From positions 1 through 22,526 of IMG/VR virus record IMGVR_UViG_3300032334_001181: a stretch of 22,526 nucleotides of DNA, one strand, 5' to 3'. Shown here in pieces: positions 5,446 through 15,477 of the stretch. Both the position numbers and the translations under genes were made by a program. The stretch is from a virus. The notes beneath the pieces were generated by a model that was given only the letters and a program-made list of their open reading frames with translations, did not search any database and had not been told where the DNA came from. How positions within the stretch are numbered: the stretch's first letter is position 1; the number at the start of each line of letters is the position of its first letter.

Positions 5446-7026
5446 ATGAAATTTAAAGATTTAACAGAAGCGGATAAGGAGTATGCTTATGGCATTTATA
5501 CAAACAAGGACTTATCTTGGGATGATAGAATGTCTAAACTTGTGGAATTTTTCGGAAAATCAGAAAGAACAGTTAGAAAATGGTGTTCAGAGAAACTAAA
5601 CTTCAAAGAAAAGGTTGATATTGAACCAGAACAATATGTAAAAGCCAAAGAAAGAAAACACGATAAATCTAAAAAAAGGTTTATCATAACTTGGGCCCAA
5701 AATAATACACCAGTTCACACTAATTTCTTGAAAAACATTGAAGCTTATGGTGATTACATTGGTGCTGATATTCACATAATCGCTGGTAGATATAAGAACC
5801 CAACATCAGTATGGACTCAAGGGCAAGAAGATAATGAATTTTGGGATAAATCAGTATTAGATTATTTAGATGCTAATAGACATGATGTACATAAATTCGT
5901 TTCTATATTATCCGACATTAAAGTACACCCAACGGCAGTTAATCCATTAACTGGATTACATAGCATTAGCGGTGTTAATTCTTGTGTTGTAGGTTCACCT
6001 AAGGTACAGATGGAGATGATTCCAGTATTGGAAGGAAATCGACCTAAAATGATGTTGACTACTGGTGCTATTACTATGCAGAACTACACTGATTCAAAAT
6101 CAGGTAAGGTAGGTGAGTTTCACCATACATTTGGTTTCGTAATTGTTGAAATTAAAGATGGTGAAGTATTCTTTGCTAGACAAGTAACAGCTAGTGATAA
6201 GAATGGTAGTTTTACTGATTTATTCTACAATGTGAATAAAGGTATTGTAACTAAAATTAATCAGATTGAAGGTATTGTATTAGGTGATTTACATATTGGT
6301 CACCATGATGAAGATGTATTAAATACGACATTTGAATTAATGGATGAACTAAAACCTAAACACGTTATTTTACATGATGTTTTTGATGGTGATTCAATTA
6401 GTCACCACCAAATGAAAGACCCGTTCGTTCAATACGGTAAAGAAGTACAAGGGACTAATGATTTAGGTAGGGAAATTGATGACATGTTGGAGCAATTAAA
6501 TCGTTTTGCTAAATTTGATAATGTTGTTATCGTAAGAAGTAATCACGATGATTTTGTTGACCGATGGTTAAAGAATGAGGATTGGAAGAAACAACCCACA
6601 TTCAAGAATGCACCATTATATATGGATTTAAGTGCTAGATTACTTAGACAATATGCAAATGGGTTTGAAGATGTTAAAGGTGTTATTCCAGAATTGATTA
6701 ACGATAGATTCCCTAAGTTTATCACATTAGGTAGAAGCGCATCATATAAGATTAAAGATTGGGAGTGTGGCCAACATGGTGACATTGGTAGTAATGGTTC
6801 TAGAGGTTCTTTATTACAGTATAGAAAATTAAATACTAAAATAATAGTAGGACATTATCATTCACCAGGTCGTAAAGATGGTGCAATTGCAGTTGGTACT
6901 TCAACTAAATTAAGAGTTGGTTATAATCAAGGGGCCAGCACTTGGTTGCAATCACATGTGATTATACATTCTGATGGAAGAGCGCAACATATTAATTTTA
7001 TAAATGGTGAATATACAACATTGTAA
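5446..7026 (+). CDS. HTH plus metallophosphoesterase protein (possible T5 A1-like nuclease)
   Basis: A 526-aa multidomain protein. Residues 20-52 resemble a helix-turn-helix (LSWDDRMSKLVEFFGKSERTVRKWCSEKL). Residues 75-270 form a middle domain that I cannot name. Residues 275-480 hold metallophosphoesterase motifs: GDLHIGHH (280-287), HDVFDG (310-315), RSNHDD (364-369), GQHGD (442-446) and GHYHSPG (469-475), so metal-dependent phosphodiester cleavage is likely. The FDG...SHHQMKDP arrangement and total size recall, from memory, the A1 pre-early DNase of phage T5 and related phage proteins; this would need checking. If right, it may degrade or nick DNA. It begins 5 nt after the ECF sigma gene and its stop overlaps the next start (TAATG). 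Confidence 0.8.
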   Translation: MKFKDLTEADKEYAYGIYTNKDLSWDDRMSKLVEFFGKSERTVRKWCSEKLNFKEKVDIEPEQYVKAKERKHDKSKKRFIITWAQNNTPVHTNFLKNIEAYGDYIGADIHIIAGRYKNPTSVWTQGQEDNEFWDKSVLDYLDANRHDVHKFVSILSDIKVHPTAVNPLTGLHSISGVNSCVVGSPKVQMEMIPVLEGNRPKMMLTTGAITMQNYTDSKSGKVGEFHHTFGFVIVEIKDGEVFFARQVTASDKNGSFTDLFYNVNKGIVTKINQIEGIVLGDLHIGHHDEDVLNTTFELMDELKPKHVILHDVFDGDSISHHQMKDPFVQYGKEVQGTNDLGREIDDMLEQLNRFAKFDNVVIVRSNHDDFVDRWLKNEDWKKQPTFKNAPLYMDLSARLLRQYANGFEDVKGVIPELINDRFPKFITLGRSASYKIKDWECGQHGDIGSNGSRGSLLQYRKLNTKIIVGHYHSPGRKDGAIAVGTSTKLRVGYNQGASTWLQSHVIIHSDGRAQHINFINGEYTTL

Positions 7027-7373
7027 TGAGAAACAAATACGATAAACTGGAAACTGAAATCCAAGAACTTTGGAAAAAAAAGATGTTAACTAGTGATGAA
7101 ATTGTTAACATCTTTAAGAAGTATGAGGAATCAAATTTAAATAAAATTAAAAAATTAAACAAACGTAGGTCATTTGAGCATAATAGGATACGTGGTGGGT
7201 TGAAACAAACTATAAATGCTCACGGCCCAATAGATATGAAATTAATTGGTAGTGCAACCAAAAGAATATCTGGGTCGTTAATAACGGATGAAAATATAAT
7301 ACCAAAAGGTAATTTTAATAGCTTTGTTTGGGGTGTAATTATAGGTTCATTAATGATATTATTATTAGTATGA
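7026..7373 (+). CDS. Tail-anchored coiled-coil membrane protein, 115 aa
   Basis: The N-terminal half is charged and helical (KYDKLETEIQELWKKKMLTSDEIVNIFKKYEES...), the middle is basic, and the final 17 residues (FVWGVIIGSLMILLLV) form one membrane span ending at the C-terminus, so the body should face the cytoplasm. No family is recognised. It is coupled at both ends: TAATG with the upstream gene and ATGA with the 2H phosphoesterase gene. Confidence 0.72.
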   Translation: MRNKYDKLETEIQELWKKKMLTSDEIVNIFKKYEESNLNKIKKLNKRRSFEHNRIRGGLKQTINAHGPIDMKLIGSATKRISGSLITDENIIPKGNFNSFVWGVIIGSLMILLLV

Positions 7374-7939
7374 AAGATTTAATTAGAACATTATTTAGGA
7401 AAAAAATAAATGAAGGTAAACACACTGACAAATTTGAATATGGCTGTGTTATGGTTTACTTAGATGTTAATAAGGATGATTGGGATTCTTTAGAAACAAT
7501 GGTTGATAAGGAAGATTTATATCTTGGTAAAGATGGTGATAGGGGTTATGGTTTTGAAACCGAACCACATGTTACAGTCCTTTATGGATTACATGGTGAT
7601 ATTCCATTAGGAGATATTGAGGAAGTTATAAACAAATTGAAAAGACCCGTATTGAAGATGCAAAAAGTTTCTTCATTCGACAATCCACAATTCGGTGTAT
7701 TAAAATTTGATGTTGAAAGTAAGGATTTGCATAAAGAAAATAAAAAATTTACAGAATTCCCACATACAACATCATATCCAGACTACCACCCACATTGCAC
7801 AATAGCATACATCAAACCAGATAAGATTGATGAGTATGTGAAAAAATTCAAAAGCATTGAACCAATCAATGTTGTTGTTGAAAAAATAGTTTACTCGATG
7901 GCTGATGGAACAAAAAAGGAATATTCCTTTGCTGATTAA
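7370..7939 (+). CDS. 2H phosphoesterase (2'-5' RNA ligase-like); possible packaged RNA-repair or anti-CBASS enzyme
   Basis: The start is ATG 7370, overlapping the upstream stop (ATGA), giving 189 aa. Two H-x-T motifs define the 2H family: EPHVTVLYG (His67, Thr69) and HPHCTIAYI (His142, Thr144). Such enzymes hydrolyse 2',3'-cyclic phosphates or 2'-5' bonds; phage members include Acb1, which destroys CBASS cyclic nucleotides. The sequence cannot tell RNA repair from anti-CBASS. The first 15 residues (MKDLIRTLFRKKINE, then GK) look like an added basic leader ending in I-N-E/G, comparable to T4 capsid-targeting peptides cut by the prohead protease. The HAD phosphatase downstream has a similar leader, suggesting a pair acting together. 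Confidence 0.85.
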   Translation: MKDLIRTLFRKKINEGKHTDKFEYGCVMVYLDVNKDDWDSLETMVDKEDLYLGKDGDRGYGFETEPHVTVLYGLHGDIPLGDIEEVINKLKRPVLKMQKVSSFDNPQFGVLKFDVESKDLHKENKKFTEFPHTTSYPDYHPHCTIAYIKPDKIDEYVKKFKSIEPINVVVEKIVYSMADGTKKEYSFAD

Positions 7940-7958
7940 ATATTTATTCGTATATTTG
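7928..7958 (+). promoter_or_regulatory. Bacteroidota-type promoter for the HAD phosphatase (leaderless)
   Basis: TTTG (7928-7931), 19 nt, TATATTTG (7951-7958), then CAAA and the ATG at 7963. The 4-nt gap predicts a leaderless transcript. The -33-like box lies in the last codons of the 2H gene. Confidence 0.65.
7940..7947 (+). promoter_or_regulatory. ATATTTAT element 15 nt before the HAD phosphatase start
   Basis: ATATTTAT begins on the last base of the 2H gene's stop codon and ends 15 nt before the ATG at 7963. The same octamer sits at exactly this distance before the genes at 8643 and 15139. Here it lies just upstream of a host-type -7 box, so this gene may have two promoter types. Confidence 0.4.
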
Positions 7959-7962
7959 CAAA

Positions 7963-8580
7963 ATGAAAGATAAAATTAGAATGATATTAAGAGAAGGTGT
8001 TGTTGATGATGTCATCAAAAGAATAGCTATATTTGATTTTGATGGTACATTAATTGACACTGATACCCCAGAAAGTGGCAAAACATTATGGGAAGATGAA
8101 TTTGGGTTTGAATGGCCATTTAAAGGTTGGTGGGGCAGACCTGAGAGTTTGGATAGTAGAATCTATTTTGAAAAAAATAAAGATAAATTATCATCAGATG
8201 TTTATGGGAAAGGTATATCTAAAAATATATTTGAAAACAACCCAATTTTAAAAACGTTACAAGCTTATAGAGAGCAATCAAGTAAGCCAGACACTATAGT
8301 GATACTATTAACTGGTAGACATTCTGGTGTTGGTAACTTGGTTACAGAGATACTAAATAGTAAAGGATTAAAATTTGATGATTACATTTATAAAACTGGT
8401 AATTTAGATACTGCTGATTTTAAAGTTGAAGTTTTAAATAAACTAGTTAGCAATAATCCAGGTTTACGAGAAATTGAAATATGGGAAGATAGGGACGACC
8501 ACTTACCAATATTCCAAGCATGGGCCAACAACCAACACTTTAAGGTTTTAGTTCATCACATAACAGATGCAACAAAGTAA
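7963..8580 (+). CDS. HAD phosphatase of the Swiss Army Knife RNA-repair type, with leader peptide
   Basis: A 205-aa protein with HAD motif I FDFDGTL (24-30, nucleophile Asp25, acid Asp27), motif II LTGRH (116-120), a candidate lysine at 154, and motif III EIWEDRDDH (172-180). The stretch GTLIDTDTPESGKTLW...FKGWWGRPESLD matches my recollection of the HAD_SAK family, found with nucleic-acid end-healing enzymes. It may remove 2'- or 3'-phosphates from RNA ends. The first 11 residues (MKDKIRMILRE, then GV) form a basic leader ending in L-R-E/G, like the leader of the 2H enzyme upstream. Together they could open a 2',3'-cyclic phosphate and remove the remaining phosphate. No RNA ligase is in this window. 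Confidence 0.83.
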   Translation: MKDKIRMILREGVVDDVIKRIAIFDFDGTLIDTDTPESGKTLWEDEFGFEWPFKGWWGRPESLDSRIYFEKNKDKLSSDVYGKGISKNIFENNPILKTLQAYREQSSKPDTIVILLTGRHSGVGNLVTEILNSKGLKFDDYIYKTGNLDTADFKVEVLNKLVSNNPGLREIEIWEDRDDHLPIFQAWANNQHFKVLVHHITDATK

Positions 8581-8608
8581 AAAAAGGGAGCCAATAGGTT
8601 CCCTTTTT
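8581..8608. terminator. Rho-independent terminator after the HAD gene
   Basis: AAAAAGGGAGCC (8581-8592), loop AATA, GGTTCCCTTTTT (8597-8608): a 12-bp stem with one G-U pair and flanking A and T runs, so it can work on both strands. It begins on the base after the HAD stop codon and isolates the lysis genes from the upstream run. Confidence 0.9.
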
Positions 8609-8619
8609 AATTTTCATTT

Positions 8620-8636
8620 ATATTTATCATTAAACG
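8620..8636 (+). promoter_or_regulatory. Candidate phage (late) promoter element of the endolysin gene
   Basis: ATATTTAT-C-ATTAAACG lies 15 nt (octamer end) before the ATG at 8643. The segment from the octamer through ATGAA is nearly identical to 15116-15143 upstream of another gene, with the same spacing. No TAnnTTTG box is present, so a different sigma factor may read it. Alternatively ATTAAACG could be a shared 5' leader or ribosome-contact sequence. Confidence 0.5.
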
Positions 8637-8642
8637 TTTAAA

Positions 8643-9101
8643 ATGAAAATTACAAAGACTAGTGATGAAGGTATTGATTTAATTAAATCATTCGAAGGTT
8701 TTAGTTCAAAACCATACCTATGCCCAGCAAAAATACCAACAATTGGCTACGGCGCAACTTTTTATCCTGACGGTAAAAAAGTTACCATGAAAGACGCATC
8801 TATTACGGAAGAAGAAGGTGTTAAATTATTAAAAAGTATGTTGGTTAAGTTTGAACAATATGTTGATTCATATTGTATTGATACAGTTAATCAAAATCAA
8901 TTTGACGCTTTAGTTTCATTCTGTTATAATTTAGGTCCAGCTAATTTAAAATCTAGCACTTTACTTAAAAAAGTTAATACTAATCCAAATGACCCAACAA
9001 TTGAAGCAGAATTTATGAAATGGACTAAAGCTGGTGGTAAAACACTTAAAGGTTTAGTTAGAAGAAGAGAAGCTGAATCTGAATTATATTTTAATAAATA
9101 A
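8643..9101 (+). CDS. Endolysin: GH24 lysozyme (muramidase)
   Basis: A 152-aa phage lysozyme that would cut the MurNAc-GlcNAc bond of peptidoglycan. The catalytic spacing E-8aa-[D/C]-5aa-T is visible with Glu18 (KSFEG), Cys27 and Thr33 (PTIGYG), so it belongs to the E-C-T subgroup. Further family marks are NQFDALVSFCYNLG and LKGLVRRREAESELY. There is no signal peptide, so release to the wall needs a holin or another route; no clear holin is adjacent. It sits between terminators at 8581 and 9715 and shares a two-gene unit with the YkuD-like protein 6 nt downstream. Unlike the reverse-strand lysozyme it has no N-terminal extension. Confidence 0.95.
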   Translation: MKITKTSDEGIDLIKSFEGFSSKPYLCPAKIPTIGYGATFYPDGKKVTMKDASITEEEGVKLLKSMLVKFEQYVDSYCIDTVNQNQFDALVSFCYNLGPANLKSSTLLKKVNTNPNDPTIEAEFMKWTKAGGKTLKGLVRRREAESELYFNK

Positions 9102-9107
9102 TAAAAA

Positions 9108-9713
9108 ATGAGTTATACAAAAGAACAAATTGAAACAGCTGTAAAAGCTAAAGGATATAAATGGTTTGAAGATGACGCTAACAAAGGTTTTGATGTAAAC
9201 ATTGTTGGTGTTAGAAATAATGCAGCAAGTGTTGCAGATAAAGTAACAAATGTATTTGATGATTTCTTAACTATATCATTTAAAGAAAATGGTGTTTGGA
9301 AATTTTATTGTTGGAATGCAACTACTGACCCAGGTAAAAAAGGTGTTATGCAATTCCATAATAATAAAGGTGTTGCTAGATTAGTACCAGGACAATATAG
9401 AAGTGTTTGGTCAATCGATAAACACCAAGGTAAATACGATGCACTTTGCCAAAGAAATGGTGATGTTAAAGTTTGGAGAGATGCTAATAGAAATTTAACA
9501 TTTGAAGAAGTTGTAACTGACACTGGTATGTTCGGTATCAATATACATAAAGCTGGTCAAGATTCTACATGGGTAGAAAATTGGAGTGAAGGTTGCCAAG
9601 TATTCAAAAGAGTTAAAGACTTTGATGAATTCATGCAGATTTGTAAGAAAGCAGCAAAAATACATGGTAACAAATTTAGTTATTCATTATTAGAAAGCAC
9701 TGACATAATTTAA
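9108..9713 (+). CDS. YkuD-like (L,D-transpeptidase fold) cell-wall enzyme
   Basis: A 201-aa protein whose C-terminal half carries GINIHKAG followed by WSEGCQVF, matching the H-x-x-G ... S-x-G-C catalytic pattern of L,D-transpeptidase (YkuD) folds with a cysteine nucleophile. From memory, similar proteins beginning KGYKWF and containing IDKHQGKYDALCQR are common in phages. In this setting, directly after a lysozyme, cleavage of peptidoglycan peptides is more likely than cross-linking; the reaction is inferred. There is no signal peptide. It ends at a strong terminator. Confidence 0.75.
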   Translation: MSYTKEQIETAVKAKGYKWFEDDANKGFDVNIVGVRNNAASVADKVTNVFDDFLTISFKENGVWKFYCWNATTDPGKKGVMQFHNNKGVARLVPGQYRSVWSIDKHQGKYDALCQRNGDVKVWRDANRNLTFEEVVTDTGMFGINIHKAGQDSTWVENWSEGCQVFKRVKDFDEFMQICKKAAKIHGNKFSYSLLESTDII

Positions 9714-9714
9714 A

Positions 9715-9742
9715 AAAAAAGCCAAAGAAATTTGGCTTTTTT
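9715..9742 (+). terminator. Rho-independent terminator of the lysis genes
   Basis: An A-run, GCCAAA (9721-9726), loop GAAA, TTTGGC (9731-9736), then six T. The A and T runs can extend the stem. It begins 1 nt after the stop codon at 9713. Its 3' arm also contains the TTTGG box of the next promoter. Confidence 0.92.
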
Positions 9743-9763
9743 CATTTATTATAAGTATCTTTG
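9731..9763 (+). promoter_or_regulatory. Bacteroidota-type promoter for the RNase R gene
   Basis: TTTGG (9731-9735), 20 nt, TATCTTTG (9756-9763); the ATG at 9784 follows after 20 nt, so this transcript has a short leader. The TTTGG box is the 3' arm of the upstream terminator hairpin. Confidence 0.75.
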
Positions 9764-9783
9764 TAAAAAACTATAATAAATTG

Positions 9784-11322
9784 ATGTTTAAAAAAGGAGA
9801 TATTGTAACTGGTGAAATAGGCCTTACTGGATTTGGTTCTGGTTATGTTACAAATGAACATATAAAACGAGGGATATATGTTAATAAAAATAATGCAAAT
9901 AAAGCATTGCATTTAGATAAGGTTAATGTTGAATTAACTAAAGTTGAGGGTGGACAATTTGAGGGTAAAGTTGTAGAAATAATAGAAAGATTCAAAACTG
10001 AGTTTGTTGGTACGATGCAAATATCTGTTAAACATGCTTTCTTTATTCCAGACAACAAAAGAATGAATATTGATTTTTTCATACCATTAAATAAATTATC
10101 TGGCGCATCTGATGGTGACAAAGTTGTTGCAAAGTTAACAACTTGGGGTGAGAATCAAAAGAACCCAAATGGTGAAGTAATTAGAGTTCTTGGTAAATCT
10201 GGTAACAATGATGTTGAAATACACAGTATACTTGAAGAATATAATTTACCATATGAATTCAAACAGAATGTAATCAACGAATCCGAATTAATATCTGACG
10301 TTATTTCTGAAAAAGAAATTACTAAGAGATTGGATATGCGTGATATATTAACATTTACTATTGATGGTGAAACTGCCAAAGATTTGGACGATGCATTATC
10401 TGTTCAATGGGTTGACGGTAACATTCAAGTTGGTGTTCATATTGCCGATGTATCTTATTACGTTAAACCTAATAGTGCAATTGATGATGAAGCATATAAA
10501 CGTGGGACATCAGTATATTTAGTCGATAGGGTTGTTCCTATGTTACCTGAGAAATTAAGTAACAATCTTTGTTCGCTTAACCCACATACTGATAAATTAG
10601 TTTACTCATTTATTTTTACACTTGACCGAAATGGTAAAGTAATTAATGAAAAGTTTTGTCGTGGAATTATCAATTCTAATTATCGATTAACCTACACTGA
10701 AGTTCAAAAAGTAATTGAAGGTGGTAATACACATAATATAGAATTGAAAAATGCTATATTAGATTTGCATAAGTATGCCAGTAAAATTAGAAAAGTTAGA
10801 AGCAGCAAAGATTCATTAAAATTTAGGGGAACTGAAGTTAAATTTGATTTAGATGGTGATGGTAAACCAGTTGGTGTTTATTTTACTGAACAAAAAGAAT
10901 CTAATTGGTTGATTGAGGAATTCATGGTACTTACAAATAGACAAGTTTGTGAATATGTAACTAAAAAATCAGTACCAACATTACATAGAACACATGATGA
11001 ACCAGACCCAACTAAATTAGAGTCTTTAAAAACTTTCGTAGAATCGGTTGGTTATAAATTAGACTTATCCGATGATAGGAAAATTAAAGATAAACTGAAT
11101 GGTTTGTTAGCTGAAGTTAGTGGTTCACCAGAAGAAAATATTATTAGCAACTTAGTTGTTAGGTGTATGGCCAAAGCCAATTACCAAACTAAGAATATAG
11201 GTCACTATGGGTTGGGGGTTAAGTATTATATGCATACAACTAGTCCAATTAGAAGATATCCAGATTTAATATTCCACAGAATAATTAGTGATGTGTTGGG
11301 TAAAGATGGTTATTTAATGTAA
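9784..11322 (+). CDS. rnr: RNase R, catalytic part (N-terminal piece of a split gene)
   Basis: A 512-aa 3'-to-5' exoribonuclease. The cold-shock-like domains cover about residues 1-130. The RNB catalytic domain follows, with the four active-site Asp in TIDGETAKDLDD (194, 200, 202, 203), then VGVHIADVSYYV, GTSVYLVDRVVPMLPE with LCSLNP, and the late TTSPIRRYPDL (485-495). It stops right after FHRIISDVLGKDGYLM, where normal RNase R continues into a helix and an S1 domain. That missing part is encoded at 12396-12779, beyond a reverse-strand lysozyme gene whose stop overlaps this one by 9 nt. The N-terminal helical domain of large host RNase R is also absent. I chose ATG 9784 over the TTG one codon upstream. 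Confidence 0.93.
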   Translation: MFKKGDIVTGEIGLTGFGSGYVTNEHIKRGIYVNKNNANKALHLDKVNVELTKVEGGQFEGKVVEIIERFKTEFVGTMQISVKHAFFIPDNKRMNIDFFIPLNKLSGASDGDKVVAKLTTWGENQKNPNGEVIRVLGKSGNNDVEIHSILEEYNLPYEFKQNVINESELISDVISEKEITKRLDMRDILTFTIDGETAKDLDDALSVQWVDGNIQVGVHIADVSYYVKPNSAIDDEAYKRGTSVYLVDRVVPMLPEKLSNNLCSLNPHTDKLVYSFIFTLDRNGKVINEKFCRGIINSNYRLTYTEVQKVIEGGNTHNIELKNAILDLHKYASKIRKVRSSKDSLKFRGTEVKFDLDGDGKPVGVYFTEQKESNWLIEEFMVLTNRQVCEYVTKKSVPTLHRTHDEPDPTKLESLKTFVESVGYKLDLSDDRKIKDKLNGLLAEVSGSPEENIISNLVVRCMAKANYQTKNIGHYGLGVKYYMHTTSPIRRYPDLIFHRIISDVLGKDGYLM

Positions 11323-12330
11323 CCCACTTTTGAATAATTTTGATTCTCTAGCTCTTCTAGTTTCTAGACCTGGATATTTATTAAACATTTGGCTGCTGGT
11401 GCTTTTTATTGCTTCAGCAGCTTCATTAAATTTATTACGTTTAACAAATTGTATAAATTCACTTTGTCTAAAATTATCGATTCCCATATTATAAATCATT
11501 GAAACCATTGCATCATACATTGGCTGCGTGATATTTGGTTTAATACCATCACCTCTCCATTCATTTAATACCCTATCTAAACCATTTGCTGCTAATTGCA
11601 TATCATCTTTTAATAAGATTTCTGCTTGTTCTTGAGTTATAGTAGTTTTTCCTGGTGTTATTTCATTATACTTTGGTAAGAAATCATATTTACCACCATT
11701 ATCACCTCTACTTGGGTCCTTAAATACGGCATGACCATATCCAATTGTATATGCACCATCACCTAAATCATATGCGGTTAGAACTGGTTTACCAGCAATA
11801 CCTTCTTCTTGTTTTAATGATTGAACTAAATTATTTGAAAATGACAACTTAGTAGGCGCTACTTTTAGTTTTTGTTCCTTCTTACTTATTTCTTTACCCA
11901 ATAATTGAGTAATCATAATACCTTCCGTAGATTTAGCGTCTACAGTATTTTCAACACTAACTAATTGATTATAACCCATAGTCAAAGCCATTGATGCAAT
12001 TGCAATTTTAATGAAACGAGATTTTAATTTGTCTGGTAGTTCAGCAACTTTAGCGACCAAACTTTTAACGAAATCAATTCCTTGTTCAGCAGTTCTAACA
12101 TATGATGCTGATTTTTTAATGTCAGATTCAATACCATTTATTCTATCATAGAATTTATTATTAATTAAATCCCACTCATAATGCGCTGAATCAGTATCAT
12201 CAGATTCCAATAATAATGAAGTAACTTCTGGGTATGATTCAACCAGCAATCTTGATTCATTTATTGCCTTATTTAAGTAATAAGCACTACTTAATCTATT
12301 AATATTATCAAATGTTATAATTTTCATCAT
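11314..12330 (-). CDS. GH24 lysozyme with long N-terminal extension, possibly packaged in the virion; interrupts rnr
   Basis: This 338-aa protein has a C-terminal GH24 domain from about residue 165: KQEEG (candidate catalytic Glu175/176), AYDLGDGAYTIGYGH with Asp188/191 and Thr195, then MYDAMVSMIYNMG and LETRRARESKLF. Spacing between Glu and Thr is longer than in T4 lysozyme. Residues 1-160 are an extension with a hydrophobic stretch (IKIAIASMALTMG, 107-119). The first 43 residues contain three [I/L]-x-E sites followed by Ser (after 25, 31 and 42), resembling prohead-protease sites, so it may be a virion enzyme used at entry. Its last two codons (His, stop) are read from the reverse complement of the end of the RNase R catalytic piece. 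Confidence 0.87.
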   Translation of the reverse strand: MMKIITFDNINRLSSAYYLNKAINESRLLVESYPEVTSLLLESDDTDSAHYEWDLINNKFYDRINGIESDIKKSASYVRTAEQGIDFVKSLVAKVAELPDKLKSRFIKIAIASMALTMGYNQLVSVENTVDAKSTEGIMITQLLGKEISKKEQKLKVAPTKLSFSNNLVQSLKQEEGIAGKPVLTAYDLGDGAYTIGYGHAVFKDPSRGDNGGKYDFLPKYNEITPGKTTITQEQAEILLKDDMQLAANGLDRVLNEWRGDGIKPNITQPMYDAMVSMIYNMGIDNFRQSEFIQFVKRNKFNEAAEAIKSTSSQMFNKYPGLETRRARESKLFKSGLH

Positions 12331-12332
12331 AT

Positions 12333-12340
12333 ATAAATAT
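12333..12340 (-). promoter_or_regulatory. ATATTTAT element upstream of the reverse-strand lysozyme
   Basis: On the minus strand GGATATTTAT lies 2 nt before the first ATG (12330) and 5 nt before the second (12327). It matches the octamer seen before the genes at 7963, 8643 and 15139, but at a much shorter distance. No TAnnTTTG box is found upstream of this gene. Confidence 0.3.
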
Positions 12341-12359
12341 CCTTTTTTAAGACAAAAAT

Positions 12360-12391
12360 GTTGATATTTTAATTATAAATTAGTATATTTG
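12360..12391 (+). promoter_or_regulatory. Bacteroidota-type promoter for the RNase R S1 piece (leaderless)
   Basis: GTTGA (12360-12364), 19 nt, TATATTTG (12384-12391), then TTAA and the ATG at 12396. The 4-nt gap predicts a leaderless mRNA. It gives the separated C-terminal RNase R part its own transcription start. Confidence 0.75.
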
Positions 12392-12395
12392 TTAA

Positions 12396-12779
12396 ATGAA
12401 GTATAAAGTTGACGAATTAGATAAAATGGCAATGCATTTATCGCAGAGGGAGAGGGTTGCTCAAAAAGCAAGTAGAGATAGTATTAAGTATAAACAATGT
12501 CAATACCTCATGGACAAACTTGGTAAAATATACGATGGTGTGATTACATCAGTTCAAGATTATGGAATGTTCATTGAAATACCTGAAAATGGTTGTGAAG
12601 GACTTGTTAAAACTAGTGATATTGGTTTTAGAAGTTGGTCATCAGATGTTAAAAATCATTGTTTTATTGAAGAAATTACTGGTAGAAAAATGAGACTTGG
12701 TGATGAAATTAAAGTAATAATTAAATCGATAGATTTAGAAAAAAAAGAAATTAATATGACTGTCCTCGATATTTATTAA
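12396..12779 (+). CDS. rnr: RNase R C-terminal piece: linker helix plus S1 RNA-binding domain
   Basis: A 127-aa protein that reads as the missing end of RNase R. Residues 7-38 (LDKMAMHLSQRERVAQKASRD then SIKYKQCQYLMDKLG) match the conserved helix after the RNB domain, where ERDSIKYKQ-type sequence is typical of Bacteroidota RNase R. Residues 41-125 form an S1 domain (GKIYDGVITSVQDYGMFIEI, ENGCEGLV, LGDEIKVIIKSID). Joined to the catalytic piece the order would be continuous, without obvious loss. It has its own leaderless promoter and start codon, so it may be made separately and act in trans, or be a decaying fragment. The intact frame over its full length argues for a functional protein. Confidence 0.88.
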   Translation: MKYKVDELDKMAMHLSQRERVAQKASRDSIKYKQCQYLMDKLGKIYDGVITSVQDYGMFIEIPENGCEGLVKTSDIGFRSWSSDVKNHCFIEEITGRKMRLGDEIKVIIKSIDLEKKEINMTVLDIY

Positions 12780-12780
12780 T

Positions 12781-12954
12781 ATGAGGAAACCAATTATAAA
12801 AGATATAGATTTTGGAGAATATATGGTATCGATTATTTATTACGGTAATGGTAAAATAGATGTTAGTGTTTTAGATGAACTTGGAAATGAAATTGAAGGT
12901 ATCTATATTACAAATGCTGATGATAATAATGGGTTTGATTTTAATTTAAATTAG
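12781..12954 (+). CDS. Hypothetical protein, 57 aa
   Basis: A short reading frame starting 1 nt after the S1 gene stop and ending in a TAG whose G is the first base of the next GTG start. It begins MRKPIIKDIDFGEYMVSIIY and has a likely small beta-sheet (IDVSVLDELGNEIEGIYIT) and an acidic end (NADDNNGFDFNLN). No family is recognised. The tight junctions on both sides support it. Confidence 0.62.
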   Translation: MRKPIIKDIDFGEYMVSIIYYGNGKIDVSVLDELGNEIEGIYITNADDNNGFDFNLN

Positions 12955-13238
12955 TGGCAATAAATTTAGAATTCGATAGCTATGAAGATATTTTAGCATT
13001 TCTTTTTAACCAAAAAAGAATGTTATTCATTGAGACATTTAATGAAATCAAAGAGTGTATTAAGAATGGTAGTGACGTTGCAAATGCCGCTAATTTTTAT
13101 ATTAATGAAAGTGCTGTTATAATAAATGTTGAACGAGAAGATTGGCCCACACATCTTGAAACATCTTTAGTATTCTTTGAGAATGTTGAAGAATATGAAA
13201 TCTGTCTAGAAATTAAAGAGTTATTAAATACTTTATGA
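12954..13238 (+). CDS. Hypothetical protein, 94 aa (GTG start)
   Basis: The frame opens with GTG at 12954, overlapping the previous stop (TAGTG); the next in-frame ATG (13021) would remove 22 residues of plausible sequence (INLEFDSYEDILAFLFNQK). The protein is acidic and helical, ending VEEYEICLEIKELLNTL. No family is recognised. The next gene overlaps its stop (ATGA). Confidence 0.65.
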   Translation: MAINLEFDSYEDILAFLFNQKRMLFIETFNEIKECIKNGSDVANAANFYINESAVIINVEREDWPTHLETSLVFFENVEEYEICLEIKELLNTL

Positions 13239-13669
13239 GTGATTCTGAATTTGTATTGTGGTATGTTAATAAACATTACCTCTTTACTGGGTTAAAATTT
13301 AAATATAAATACCATATTAAAGATAATCATATTACCTTTGGTCAATTATGTGACAATGTATCTAATTCAACCGCAATTAATAAAATAGAAGATAAAACAT
13401 TACATGGTTTCCTACTTAAATGGTACAATAATAAACAAATTGAAGCCAAATTAGATGCACTAGATTTCATCAAATACAAATACAAAGTAACTTTAGGACC
13501 AAGAAGTTGGGAAATTGCTAAATTATCTGGTAAATTAGTAAAAAAAGATGACATAGTTAAAGATTTAAATAAAAAATATGATTCTGATTTTATCATAAAT
13601 TTAATAGACGAGTGGTTTGATACTGAGATGGTTAGAATCACCGAAACCTCAACACTACATTTTAAGTAA
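13235..13669 (+). CDS. Hypothetical protein, 144 aa
   Basis: Starts in an ATGA overlap. Basic and rich in aromatic residues, with helical stretches (KIEDKTLHGFLLKWYNNKQIEAKLDALDF and KDDIVKDLNKKYDSDFIINLIDEWF). No known domain is recognised. It ends the small-gene run after the RNase R S1 piece, 57 nt before smpB, with the smpB promoter in between. Confidence 0.68.
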   Translation: MSDSEFVLWYVNKHYLFTGLKFKYKYHIKDNHITFGQLCDNVSNSTAINKIEDKTLHGFLLKWYNNKQIEAKLDALDFIKYKYKVTLGPRSWEIAKLSGKLVKKDDIVKDLNKKYDSDFIINLIDEWFDTEMVRITETSTLHFK

Positions 13670-13687
13670 AAAAAATATTTAAAAAAA

Positions 13688-13719
13688 TTTGGATAATACA
13701 CATATTGTCCTTATCTTTG
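13688..13719 (+). promoter_or_regulatory. Bacteroidota-type promoter for smpB (near-leaderless)
   Basis: TTTGG (13688-13692), 19 nt, TATCTTTG (13712-13719), then 7 nt to the ATG at 13727. The string AAATTTGGATAAT around the -33 box is repeated at the promoter of the 16343 gene. Confidence 0.8.
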
Positions 13720-13726
13720 TAAAACG

Positions 13727-14167
13727 ATGGAAGTAATAGTTAAAAATAAAAAATCATCATATGAATATGAGTTTATTGATAAGTTCACTGCTGGAATTAA
13801 ATTAATTGGTAGTGAAGTTAAGTCAATAAGGAATCATAAGGTATCAATATCTGAGGCATATTGTTACATTAAAGATGGTGAAGTGTATATTAAGGGTATG
13901 AACATATCTGAATACAAAGAAAGTGGTATTCACACAAATCATGACCCAATCAGATTAAGGAAATTATTGTTAAACAAAAAAGAAATAATAAAACTAGATG
14001 AAGAAATTCAACAAAAGGGCTTGACAATAGTACCCATTAGTCTTATCATTAATGACAAGGGTCTAATTAAACTTGAGATAGCATTATCTAAAGGTAAAAA
14101 ACTTCACGACAAACGTGATTCGATTAAAAAACGAGATTTAGAAAGAGAGTTAAACATTAAATTTTAA
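13727..14167 (+). CDS. smpB: SsrA (tmRNA)-binding protein SmpB
   Basis: A 146-aa protein matching SmpB over its whole length. Marks are NKKSSYEYEF, FTAGIKLIGSEVKSIRNHKVSISEAYCYI, GEVYIKGMNISEY, NHDPIRLRKLLLNKKEI, KGLTIVPISLI and SKGKKLHDKRDSIKKRDLERE. SmpB binds tmRNA and carries it to stalled ribosomes; its basic tail enters the empty mRNA channel. The tail here is short (RELNIKF). A phage copy is unusual, and RNase R, which degrades the non-stop mRNA after rescue, is encoded just upstream. I found no tmRNA gene in the window, so it would have to work with host tmRNA or one encoded elsewhere. It is followed 12 nt later by the RpoD-like sigma gene, probably on the same transcript. Confidence 0.95.
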   Translation: MEVIVKNKKSSYEYEFIDKFTAGIKLIGSEVKSIRNHKVSISEAYCYIKDGEVYIKGMNISEYKESGIHTNHDPIRLRKLLLNKKEIIKLDEEIQQKGLTIVPISLIINDKGLIKLEIALSKGKKLHDKRDSIKKRDLERELNIKF

Positions 14168-14179
14168 ACATAAGTATAT

Positions 14180-15067
14180 ATGAGACAATTAAAAATCAAT
14201 CAGAAAATTACAAACAGAAATTCAAGTAAATCATTTGAAAAGTATTTATCAGATGTTAGAAGTATCAAATCATTTGAAACTCCAGATGCAGAATACCAAT
14301 GTGCATTAAAAGCATATAATGGTGATAAAAATGCTATCAATGAATTAGTTGAAAGAAACTTAAAGTTTGTAATTAGTGTTGCTAAACAATATGCTTGTTC
14401 ATTAGCACCACTTGAAGAATTGGTTAATGAGGGTAATTATGGGTTGATTGAAGCTGCTGAAAAGTTTGAACCATCTCGTGGATTTAAATTCATATCATAT
14501 GCTGTTTGGTATATTAGAAAAAATATAACAGATTATATGAATAGACATTCTAGGTCAATTAGAATACCTATCAATAAAATAACTGAGTTGAATAAATTGA
14601 AAAAAGAAATTGAAAAACTTGAACAAACAAATGAAAGACCAGTATCATCAATTGATTTGGTTGGACTTGAGGGTTCGGATTTAAATTTCGATAACATTAA
14701 TATGTTATTAAGTTTGGATTCAATGTCAGTTTCATCATTAGATGCACCTTTCACTTCAGATGGTGATAGTGGTTCAATGATTGATGTTATTGAAAATACT
14801 AATTCATTAAGTTCAGACCACTTAGTTAATGAAAATGATTTTTTTAAAGTAATGGAATCTGCATTATCTGGTTTAACAAATAGACAAAGAGAAATCATAA
14901 CATTGACATATGGTTTGAATGGTCAAGAGCCACTTAGTTTGATTGAAATTGGTGAAAGAGTTGAAATGAGTCGTGAAGGTGTTAGACAATTAAGAAAGAA
15001 AGCACTTAAGATTCTAAAAATAAACATGACTCGTAACGGGGTTAAAATAGAAATGTTTAATAATTAA
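14180..15067 (+). CDS. RpoD-like (sigma-70 group 1/2) RNA polymerase sigma factor
   Basis: A 295-aa sigma factor resembling the Bacteroidota primary sigma, whose N-terminus is also of the type MRQLKI..ITNR. Region 2 spans about 55-128 (LKFVISVAKQYA, EELVNEGNYGLIEAAEKF, GFKFISYAVWYIRKNITDYMN), then IRIPINKI. Region 4 spans about 225-282 (LTNRQREIITLTYGL and the HTH SLIEIGERVEMSREGVRQLRKKAL). Region 2.4 carries changes (YIRKNITDYMNRHSRS) relative to what I recall of host RpoD, so it may read a different -10 element; the ATATTTAT sites are candidates. It follows smpB by 12 nt and ends at a strong terminator. Confidence 0.93.
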   Translation: MRQLKINQKITNRNSSKSFEKYLSDVRSIKSFETPDAEYQCALKAYNGDKNAINELVERNLKFVISVAKQYACSLAPLEELVNEGNYGLIEAAEKFEPSRGFKFISYAVWYIRKNITDYMNRHSRSIRIPINKITELNKLKKEIEKLEQTNERPVSSIDLVGLEGSDLNFDNINMLLSLDSMSVSSLDAPFTSDGDSGSMIDVIENTNSLSSDHLVNENDFFKVMESALSGLTNRQREIITLTYGLNGQEPLSLIEIGERVEMSREGVRQLRKKALKILKINMTRNGVKIEMFNN

Positions 15068-15070
15068 TAT

Positions 15071-15091
15071 AACCCCTAAAGGGGTTTTTTT
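15071..15091 (+). terminator. Rho-independent terminator after the RpoD-like gene
   Basis: AACCCC (15071-15076), loop TAAA, GGGGTT (15081-15086), then a T-run, 3 nt after the stop codon. It ends the smpB-sigma unit. Confidence 0.93.
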
Positions 15092-15115
15092 ATTTGCATT
15101 TTTAATAAATTACAG

Positions 15116-15132
15116 ATATTTATTATTAAACG
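15116..15132 (+). promoter_or_regulatory. Candidate phage (late) promoter element, second strong copy
   Basis: ATATTTAT-T-ATTAAACG, with the octamer ending 15 nt before the ATG at 15139. It closely matches 8620-8636 in sequence and spacing. The gene lies alone between two terminators, so this must be its own promoter or leader region, and no TAnnTTTG box is present. Confidence 0.5.
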
Positions 15133-15138
15133 CTAAAA

Positions 15139-15477
15139 ATGAATAGAGACGACATTAAATATAAACTTAGAGAATCACTAACTGGGTTATTTGAAGATTC
15201 TGATAAAGAGGAAAAAGAAAAAGAAGATTCTAAAAAAGAAAGTGGAATCAAAAAAGATTATTCAGATGTTCAAATCGCTTTAGATAAAGACAGAGACCCA
15301 ACAGCACCATCACAAGTTGGTGTTATGAAAAAAATGGGTATACCTGATGATGAGAATGGAGTTAATAGGTCTTTATTCGGTAAAAAATTACACCAAGAAA
15401 AAAATGATGATGGTTCATTATATCAATTTGATGATAAGGAACTATCGAAATTGCGAGGCGTGATAGACGCTAGATAA
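15139..15477 (+). CDS. Charged hypothetical protein with capsid-targeting-like N-terminus, 112 aa
   Basis: The start MNRDDIKYKLRE followed by S resembles the leaders of the 2H and HAD proteins: a basic helix ending L-R-E. Residues 18-40 are a run of Asp, Glu and Lys (probably disordered), followed by a folded part with IALDKDRDPTAPSQVG, MKKMGIPDDENGVNRSLF and GKKLHQEKNDDGSLYQFD. No enzyme motif is seen. It is a single-gene unit with its own terminator and a candidate late promoter, which suits a virion or internal-head protein; that is inference. Confidence 0.75.
   Translation: MNRDDIKYKLRESLTGLFEDSDKEEKEKEDSKKESGIKKDYSDVQIALDKDRDPTAPSQVGVMKKMGIPDDENGVNRSLFGKKLHQEKNDDGSLYQFDDKELSKLRGVIDAR

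Follow-up and report, generated by a model that had tools for sequence, protein, structure and literature searches.

It is very probable that the short N-terminal leaders found on several unrelated proteins of a giant phage are capsid-targeting propeptides of the kind used by phage T4. The window, that is, the whole stretch of DNA that was analyzed, is the complete 22,526-base viral contig record IMGVR_UViG_3300032334_001181, which is a fragment of a giant phage. T4 internal proteins carry N-terminal capsid-targeting sequences that are removed by the gp21 prohead protease at [L/I]-x-E. The original prediction was that four window proteins, namely a 2H phosphoesterase (gene at 7370), a HAD phosphatase (7963), a 112-residue protein (15139), and a reverse-strand lysozyme, begin with a basic leader that ends in this motif. 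The N-termini that it quoted are encoded where it placed them: MKDLIRTLFRKKINE↓G, MKDKIRMILRE↓G and MNRDDIKYKLRE↓S (the arrow marks the predicted cut), with INE↓S, LVE↓S, and LLE↓S in the lysozyme. The capsid-targeting reading is well supported for the 2H, HAD, and 112-residue proteins, and less certain for the lysozyme.

The relatives of the window were reached via the 2H protein, which gave 80 viral contigs, five of which (G003, G006, G008, G013, and G015) match the window in gene content and order, with 68-76% identity in the 526-residue protein encoded at 5446. In this lineage the leader has the consensus I-K-x-x-L-R-E↓[A/S/G], or a form one helical turn longer that ends in LxE or INE; it is basic and amphipathic, and the region that follows is often charged. 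Given that plain counts of [ILVF]xE are weakly informative for the lineage, a profile was needed. This profile has 10 columns and a cut-off of 9, and its counts carry some circularity, since it was refined on the lineage set that it counts. When trained on the relatives without the window, it placed the 2H, HAD, and 112-residue proteins as the top three of the 48 window open reading frames (the three scores being 18.1, for the HAD leader, 13.2, and 11.5), while the next one scored 8.2 and no others pass the cut-off. For the HAD leader, the training set holds no leader-bearing orthologue.

Extending the search beyond the window, as had been proposed, gave 68 N-termini over the cut-off in related contigs of 60-369 kb; shuffling of the same N-termini gave 8.0 ± 3.0, and the expectation based on internal windows was 5.6. 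With a stricter cut-off, 44 real N-termini compare with 0.5 shuffled ones. When only G006, G003, G008, and the window were used for training, the strict cut-off retained 8 N-termini in G013 (versus 0.16) and 4 in G015 (versus 0.28).

The leader is an add-on, given that leaderless homologues of the HAD and 2H enzymes exist. For the HAD phosphatase, in which the DxDGT motif is present as FDFDGT, the six orthologues of G003, G006, G008, G013, G015, and LR745206 are leaderless, their N-terminus lying a few residues ahead of the first domain strand, and the window clade adds MKDKIRMILRE↓GVVDDV ahead of it. Among relatives of the 112-residue protein, the leader is retained while the adjoining linker varies; this protein has no Pfam or PHROG match, and its C-terminal domain is without family assignment. 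The glutamate at the end of the leader is retained although the length of the leader shifts by four residues.

The 2H protein matches PF23474 (Acb1, 1e-07, above the cut-off) and PF13563 (2'-5' RNA ligase, 3e-07), and H67/T69 and H142/T144 are invariant among its homologues. The closest structures to its AlphaFold2 model are Usb1 (4h7w) and Acb1 (7t26), which are equally close. The mean predicted local distance difference test (pLDDT) score of the model is 89, with residues 1-19 disordered (pLDDT<50) and the remainder confident. Because residues 1-19 are disordered, the leader is not folded into the 2H domain, which answers for this protein the concern raised with the original prediction that the N-terminus might belong to a folded domain. 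The motif [ILVMF]xE stands directly ahead of the domain in 60 of the 61 distinct homologues with a readable N-terminus, the lone exception being truncated by the contig end, versus 26.0 ± 3.5 in shuffled versions of these segments; these 61 sequences are kin, and the count is no probability. Some 2H homologues bear unrelated leaders, and those of Maribacter phage Molly, LR756508, and LR756504 are leaderless. As a separate observation, the T4 Acb1 gene 57B directly adjoins ipI (NC_000866, 73591-74410).

The ten N-terminal residues of T4 IPIII suffice to bring foreign proteins into the prohead; residues 4 and 7 are important for targeting, and residues 8 and 10 for processing (PMC9026906). Counted back from the glutamate, these T4 positions 4, 8, and 10 coincide with I, L, and E, which are conserved in the window-lineage profile, and it is because of this match that the leaders are read as capsid-targeting propeptides. 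The T4 N-termini are MKTYQEFIAE↓A for IPII and IPIII and MAKINELLRE↓S for gp24. With profiles that were not trained on T4, IPIII scores 13.8 (LR745206 profile) and gp24 scores 14.0 (window-lineage profile); in the parts of T4 examined with the hold-out profile there was one match above 12, the fitting T4 sequence being gp24.

The style of the leader is particular to each huge phage: it is IKxxLRE for the window lineage, KKYxxFIKE for LR745206, and LRKIVKE for LR756508, with between 36 (LR745206) and 60 (LR756508) leader-bearing N-termini per phage. The 2H leaders were scored against these styles with the 2H proteins left out of training. For the LR745206 2H leader, its own profile gives 22.7 and the window-lineage profile 11.2; for that of LR756502, the LR745206 profile gives 20.2 and the window-lineage profile 0.9; and for that of G015, the window-lineage profile gives 20.1 and the LR745206 profile 3.8. 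This own-style rule is imperfect, given that the 2H leaders of G003 and G013 fall under the cut-off with the window-lineage profile. Flavobacterium phage immuto has the S77 protease, Gp23, and leaders such as MKKSQLRQIIKE↓A, one leader being common to two proteins (MKKQILSEQF[KR]RMQ[FK]LAGIITE↓S); no virion data for this phage were found in the open literature. A second type of leader, M[RK][KR]xDKKLNIxKxN[IL]L[AS]E↓QRYL, occurs on differing bodies in G013 (49490 and 211721) and G015 (233277).

The original prediction also called for a search for a gp21-like protease gene. None was matched on the window fragment, and the gp21/S77 prohead protease, with its catalytic residues, is present in the syntenic relatives G013 and G015. 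The head module of the syntenic relatives is of T4 type and complete; in G015 the gene order is terminase, T4-type portal (PF07230, 7.5e-72), S77 protease (PF03420, 1.2e-24), scaffold-like protein, and Gp23 (PF07068, 2.7e-70). The protease of the lineage aligns to T4 gp21 at GELxHP and GVSSRG. Among 48 contigs that encode a 2H relative, 22 gave an S77 match, and so did 8 of the 9 that exceed 200 kb; the seven viral-contig relatives searched first, all fragments of ~160 kb or shorter, gave none. Near residue 60, STLLTE↓S or ↓N occurs in the capsid protein of G015 and G013, as FLTE↓A does near residue 65 in T4 gp23, and the propeptide in G015 and G013 would be cut at LLTE↓S/N. Leader proteins directly adjoin the capsid gene, beginning with MKHTIKKLLRE↓S in G015 and MKEFIQKLLRE↓S in G013.

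Two proteases of other huge phages have unusual architectures. In that of LR745206 (198546-200669), the long C-terminus is built from repeats of YSEYLAENLDKNI, and every unit has a possible cleavage motif; many of the long YLAENLDKNI repeats in this protease fit the motif. The S77 protease of LR756508 (L018/L023, 156480-158204) has an intein-like insertion between GELDHPDC and the remainder.

An upstream element is shared by leader genes and virion genes. In the window, G003, G006, and G008, ATATTTAT lies upstream of 13 of 31 leader genes versus 26 of 532 others (P=9e-9), and before leader genes it takes the form [GAT]ATATTTAT[AT]. A k-mer count in G015 served as control for this element: among the virion-region genes, with the leader genes removed, the top enriched 8-mer was TATTTATA (17 of 104 versus 8 of 423, P=9e-8), and a 9-mer that contains ATATTTAT was enriched as well. 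In the window, the element precedes the HAD, endolysin, lysozyme, and 112-residue protein genes and three small open reading frames, and its probable role is that of a late promoter. The Bacteroidota -7 box TAnnTTTG was also observed 3-5 nucleotides before the start codons of a set of genes in the window, G006, G013, and G015, a distance so short that it would give leaderless mRNAs; counted over the whole window, TAnnTTTG is not above chance. Because of these promoter-like boxes near start codons, and of the Flavobacterium and Maribacter phages among the relatives, this phage group most likely infects Bacteroidota.

Table 1. Leaders, protein domains and upstream elements of the window.
Feature	Position	Strand	Basis or remark
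2H leader MKDLIRTLFRKKINE	7370..7414	+	Sequence; predicted cut before G16; long form IRxxxRxxINE
2H phosphoesterase domain, LigT/Usb1/Acb1 fold, two HxT motifs	7415..7936	+	Pfam profiles, invariant residues, structures
ATATTTAT element aatatttatt	7939..7948	+	Upstream of HAD gene
TATATTTG, Bacteroidota-type -7 box	7951..7958	+	4 nucleotides ahead of the ATG of the HAD gene
HAD leader MKDKIRMILRE	7963..7995	+	Predicted cut before G12; score 18.1 with the window excluded from training
HAD_SAK_1 phosphatase domain, RNA-repair type	7996..8577	+	PF10307, 4.5e-19
Lysozyme PF00959	11314/11317..12330	-	7e-20 at residues 183-329; weak case as head protein
ATATTTAT element gatatttatat	12331..12341	-	Immediately before the lysozyme start codon
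ATATTTAT element gatatttatt	15115..15124	+	Upstream of the gene for the 112-residue protein
112-residue protein, leader MNRDDIKYKLRE	15139..15174	+	Predicted cut before S13
112-residue protein, body: charged linker, then conserved C-terminal domain	15175..15474	+	Conserved DYSDVQ...NRSLF...YQFDD

The claim that four proteins carry a leader held for the three with the highest profile scores and only partly for the lysozyme, whose motifs do not form a leader of the same kind. The N-terminus of the lysozyme is conserved in close relatives, with comparable [I/L]-x-E sites, which in the window protein lie at residues 25, 31, and 42. That the lysozyme is a head protein is possible, with the balance tilting slightly the other way. 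The endolysin at 8643, which is a phage lysozyme by profile, was correctly described as having no such leader; as a candidate leader protein it was rejected, since its score falls under the cut-off once the window is excluded from training. The lysozyme gene sits on the reverse strand between two parts of a split RNase R gene (9784-11322, 11314-12330 on the reverse strand, 12396-12779), of which the RNB and S1 parts are separate genes; the same arrangement is found in G001, and RNB and S1 form a single protein of ~650 residues in G003, G006, G008, G013, and G015.

The leader-bearing proteins of the lineage include a polynucleotide kinase/CPDase (AAA_33 and tRNA_lig_CPD), a CCA-adding enzyme, a GNAT acetyltransferase, GP88 proteins, an ART-PolyVal ADP-ribosyltransferase, a NUDIX protein with a possible zinc ribbon, a nicotinamide phosphoribosyltransferase (NAMPT), and many unknowns. 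If the leaders act as in T4, the proteins that carry them would be made during head assembly, and the basic amphipathic leader would bind the prohead core. The S77 prohead protease would then cut after [I/L]xE, as in the capsid protein, and the trimmed enzymes would stay inside the head alongside the DNA, to be carried with it into the next cell. There the cargo, mainly enzymes of RNA-end repair and of nucleotide and nicotinamide adenine dinucleotide (NAD) chemistry, might mend the effects of host defence or block it before phage genes are expressed. It is somewhat more plausible than otherwise that the giant-phage head is a general delivery vehicle, in which each lineage places its own style of leader on dozens of proteins. 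A tRNA/RNA-end repair set (kinase/CPDase, 2H, HAD phosphatase, and CCA-adding enzyme) and NAD/ADP-ribosyl enzymes would thus enter with the DNA, and cargo would be recruited by gaining a leader, as the HAD phosphatase may have been in the window clade.

Several observations weigh against the capsid-targeting reading. ATATTTAT was not found before the 2H gene of the window, nor before the 2H genes of most relatives, and more than half of the leader genes are without it. A few of the 68 N-termini are false positives, the endolysin at 8643 being one example, part of the gp21-like sites arise by chance, and the enrichment in G015 alone is modest. The N-terminus of the lysozyme is longer than the other leaders, neither basic nor amphipathic, and its score is not over the cut-off. 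The S77 search of the window contig gave no match, and neither did the control, so that absence from a fragment of 22.5 kb is not established. Packaging may not extend to all three proteins with the strongest leaders. It is indeed conceivable, if unlikely, that part of the leader proteins are packaged and that the 2H protein and others, with a degenerate or inherited leader, are ordinary cytoplasmic enzymes. The missing element upstream of most 2H genes fits this explanation, as do the leaderless 2H proteins of Molly, LR756508, and LR756504, phages that do have S77 matches, indicating that packaging is dispensable for the enzyme. Drift, however, would erode a leader that had lost its function, whereas the 2H leader is retained in 60 of 61 readable homologues despite strong divergence, and in LR745206 and LR756502 it follows the LR745206-type style.

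The leaders could also be localization or docking helices for a target other than the head, such as the membrane, a replication compartment, or a scaffold, with the final glutamate being part of the helix and not of a cleavage site. The leader is basic, amphipathic, and helix-like, often with a charged region after it, and the 2H gene, lacking the shared upstream element, may be expressed early. This explanation is nonetheless improbable: the glutamate is retained when the length of the leader shifts by four residues, the same motif ends the capsid propeptide and the T4 substrates, some leader genes lie within the head cluster, and the upstream element is common to leader and virion genes. The probability that the leaders are a compositional artefact is negligible. 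A genome of ~30% G+C would be expected to have Lys/Ile-rich N-termini, in which [IL]xE could arise by chance, and [ILVF]xE alone occurs at ~2% of positions. Shuffled N-termini nevertheless give 8 matches versus 68, and 0.5 versus 44 at the stricter cut-off, and the control genomes, AT-rich crAss001 and part of RM378, have no clear excess of leaders; chance and composition were rejected as the cause by these tests.

Capsid targeting being the most probable role of the leaders, the results suggest that RNA-repair and anti-defence enzymes are delivered ready-made into the cell at infection. RNA repair would be brought along by these phages and not made later, which fits with the early cutting of tRNA by some defences. 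Since the sequence alone suffices to recognize the leader, it flags those unknown proteins of huge phages that are likely to be injected at infection, and leaders of this kind offer natural tags with which to load very large heads with proteins. The principle of capsid targeting is already known from T4; what would be new is that giant phages apply T4-type targeting to enzymes of RNA repair and related ones, given that capsid targeting of RNA-repair enzymes in huge phages was not described in the open-access literature searched.

Among known systems, phiKZ and SPN3US are also giant phages, in which a related protease processes proteins at x-x-E, and two diverged paralogues have the common N-terminus MANFVKSKLARESVE (PMC5694885). 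Their propeptides, however, are mostly longer than 100 residues, occur on the virion RNA polymerase and inner-head proteins, and have mainly A/S-x-E as the motif. The window 2H protein shares the 2H fold and the two HxT motifs with the anti-CBASS nuclease Acb1 (T4 57B), which is itself leaderless, unlike the window protein; PF13563 scores the 2H protein about as well and the Usb1 structure is equally near, so these matches do not fix its substrate. The gp24 propeptide of T4, a known gp21 substrate, is near-identical to the window-lineage leader, although gp24 is a capsid vertex protein and not an injected enzyme. T4 IPI, IPII, IPIII, and Alt, whose capsid-targeting sequences are cut by gp21, likewise have a short N-terminal leader ending in hydrophobic-x-E, unrelated bodies, and an S77 protease. 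In T4, as in the window lineage, the capsid protein carries the same motif as the leaders, and both have an ADP-ribosyltransferase among the cargo, namely Alt in T4 and ART-PolyVal in the lineage. The two differ in the leader itself, which is YQEFIAE in the T4 internal proteins versus IKxxLRE in the window lineage, and in the predicted cargo, which in the huge phages consists of RNA-repair and NAD enzymes.

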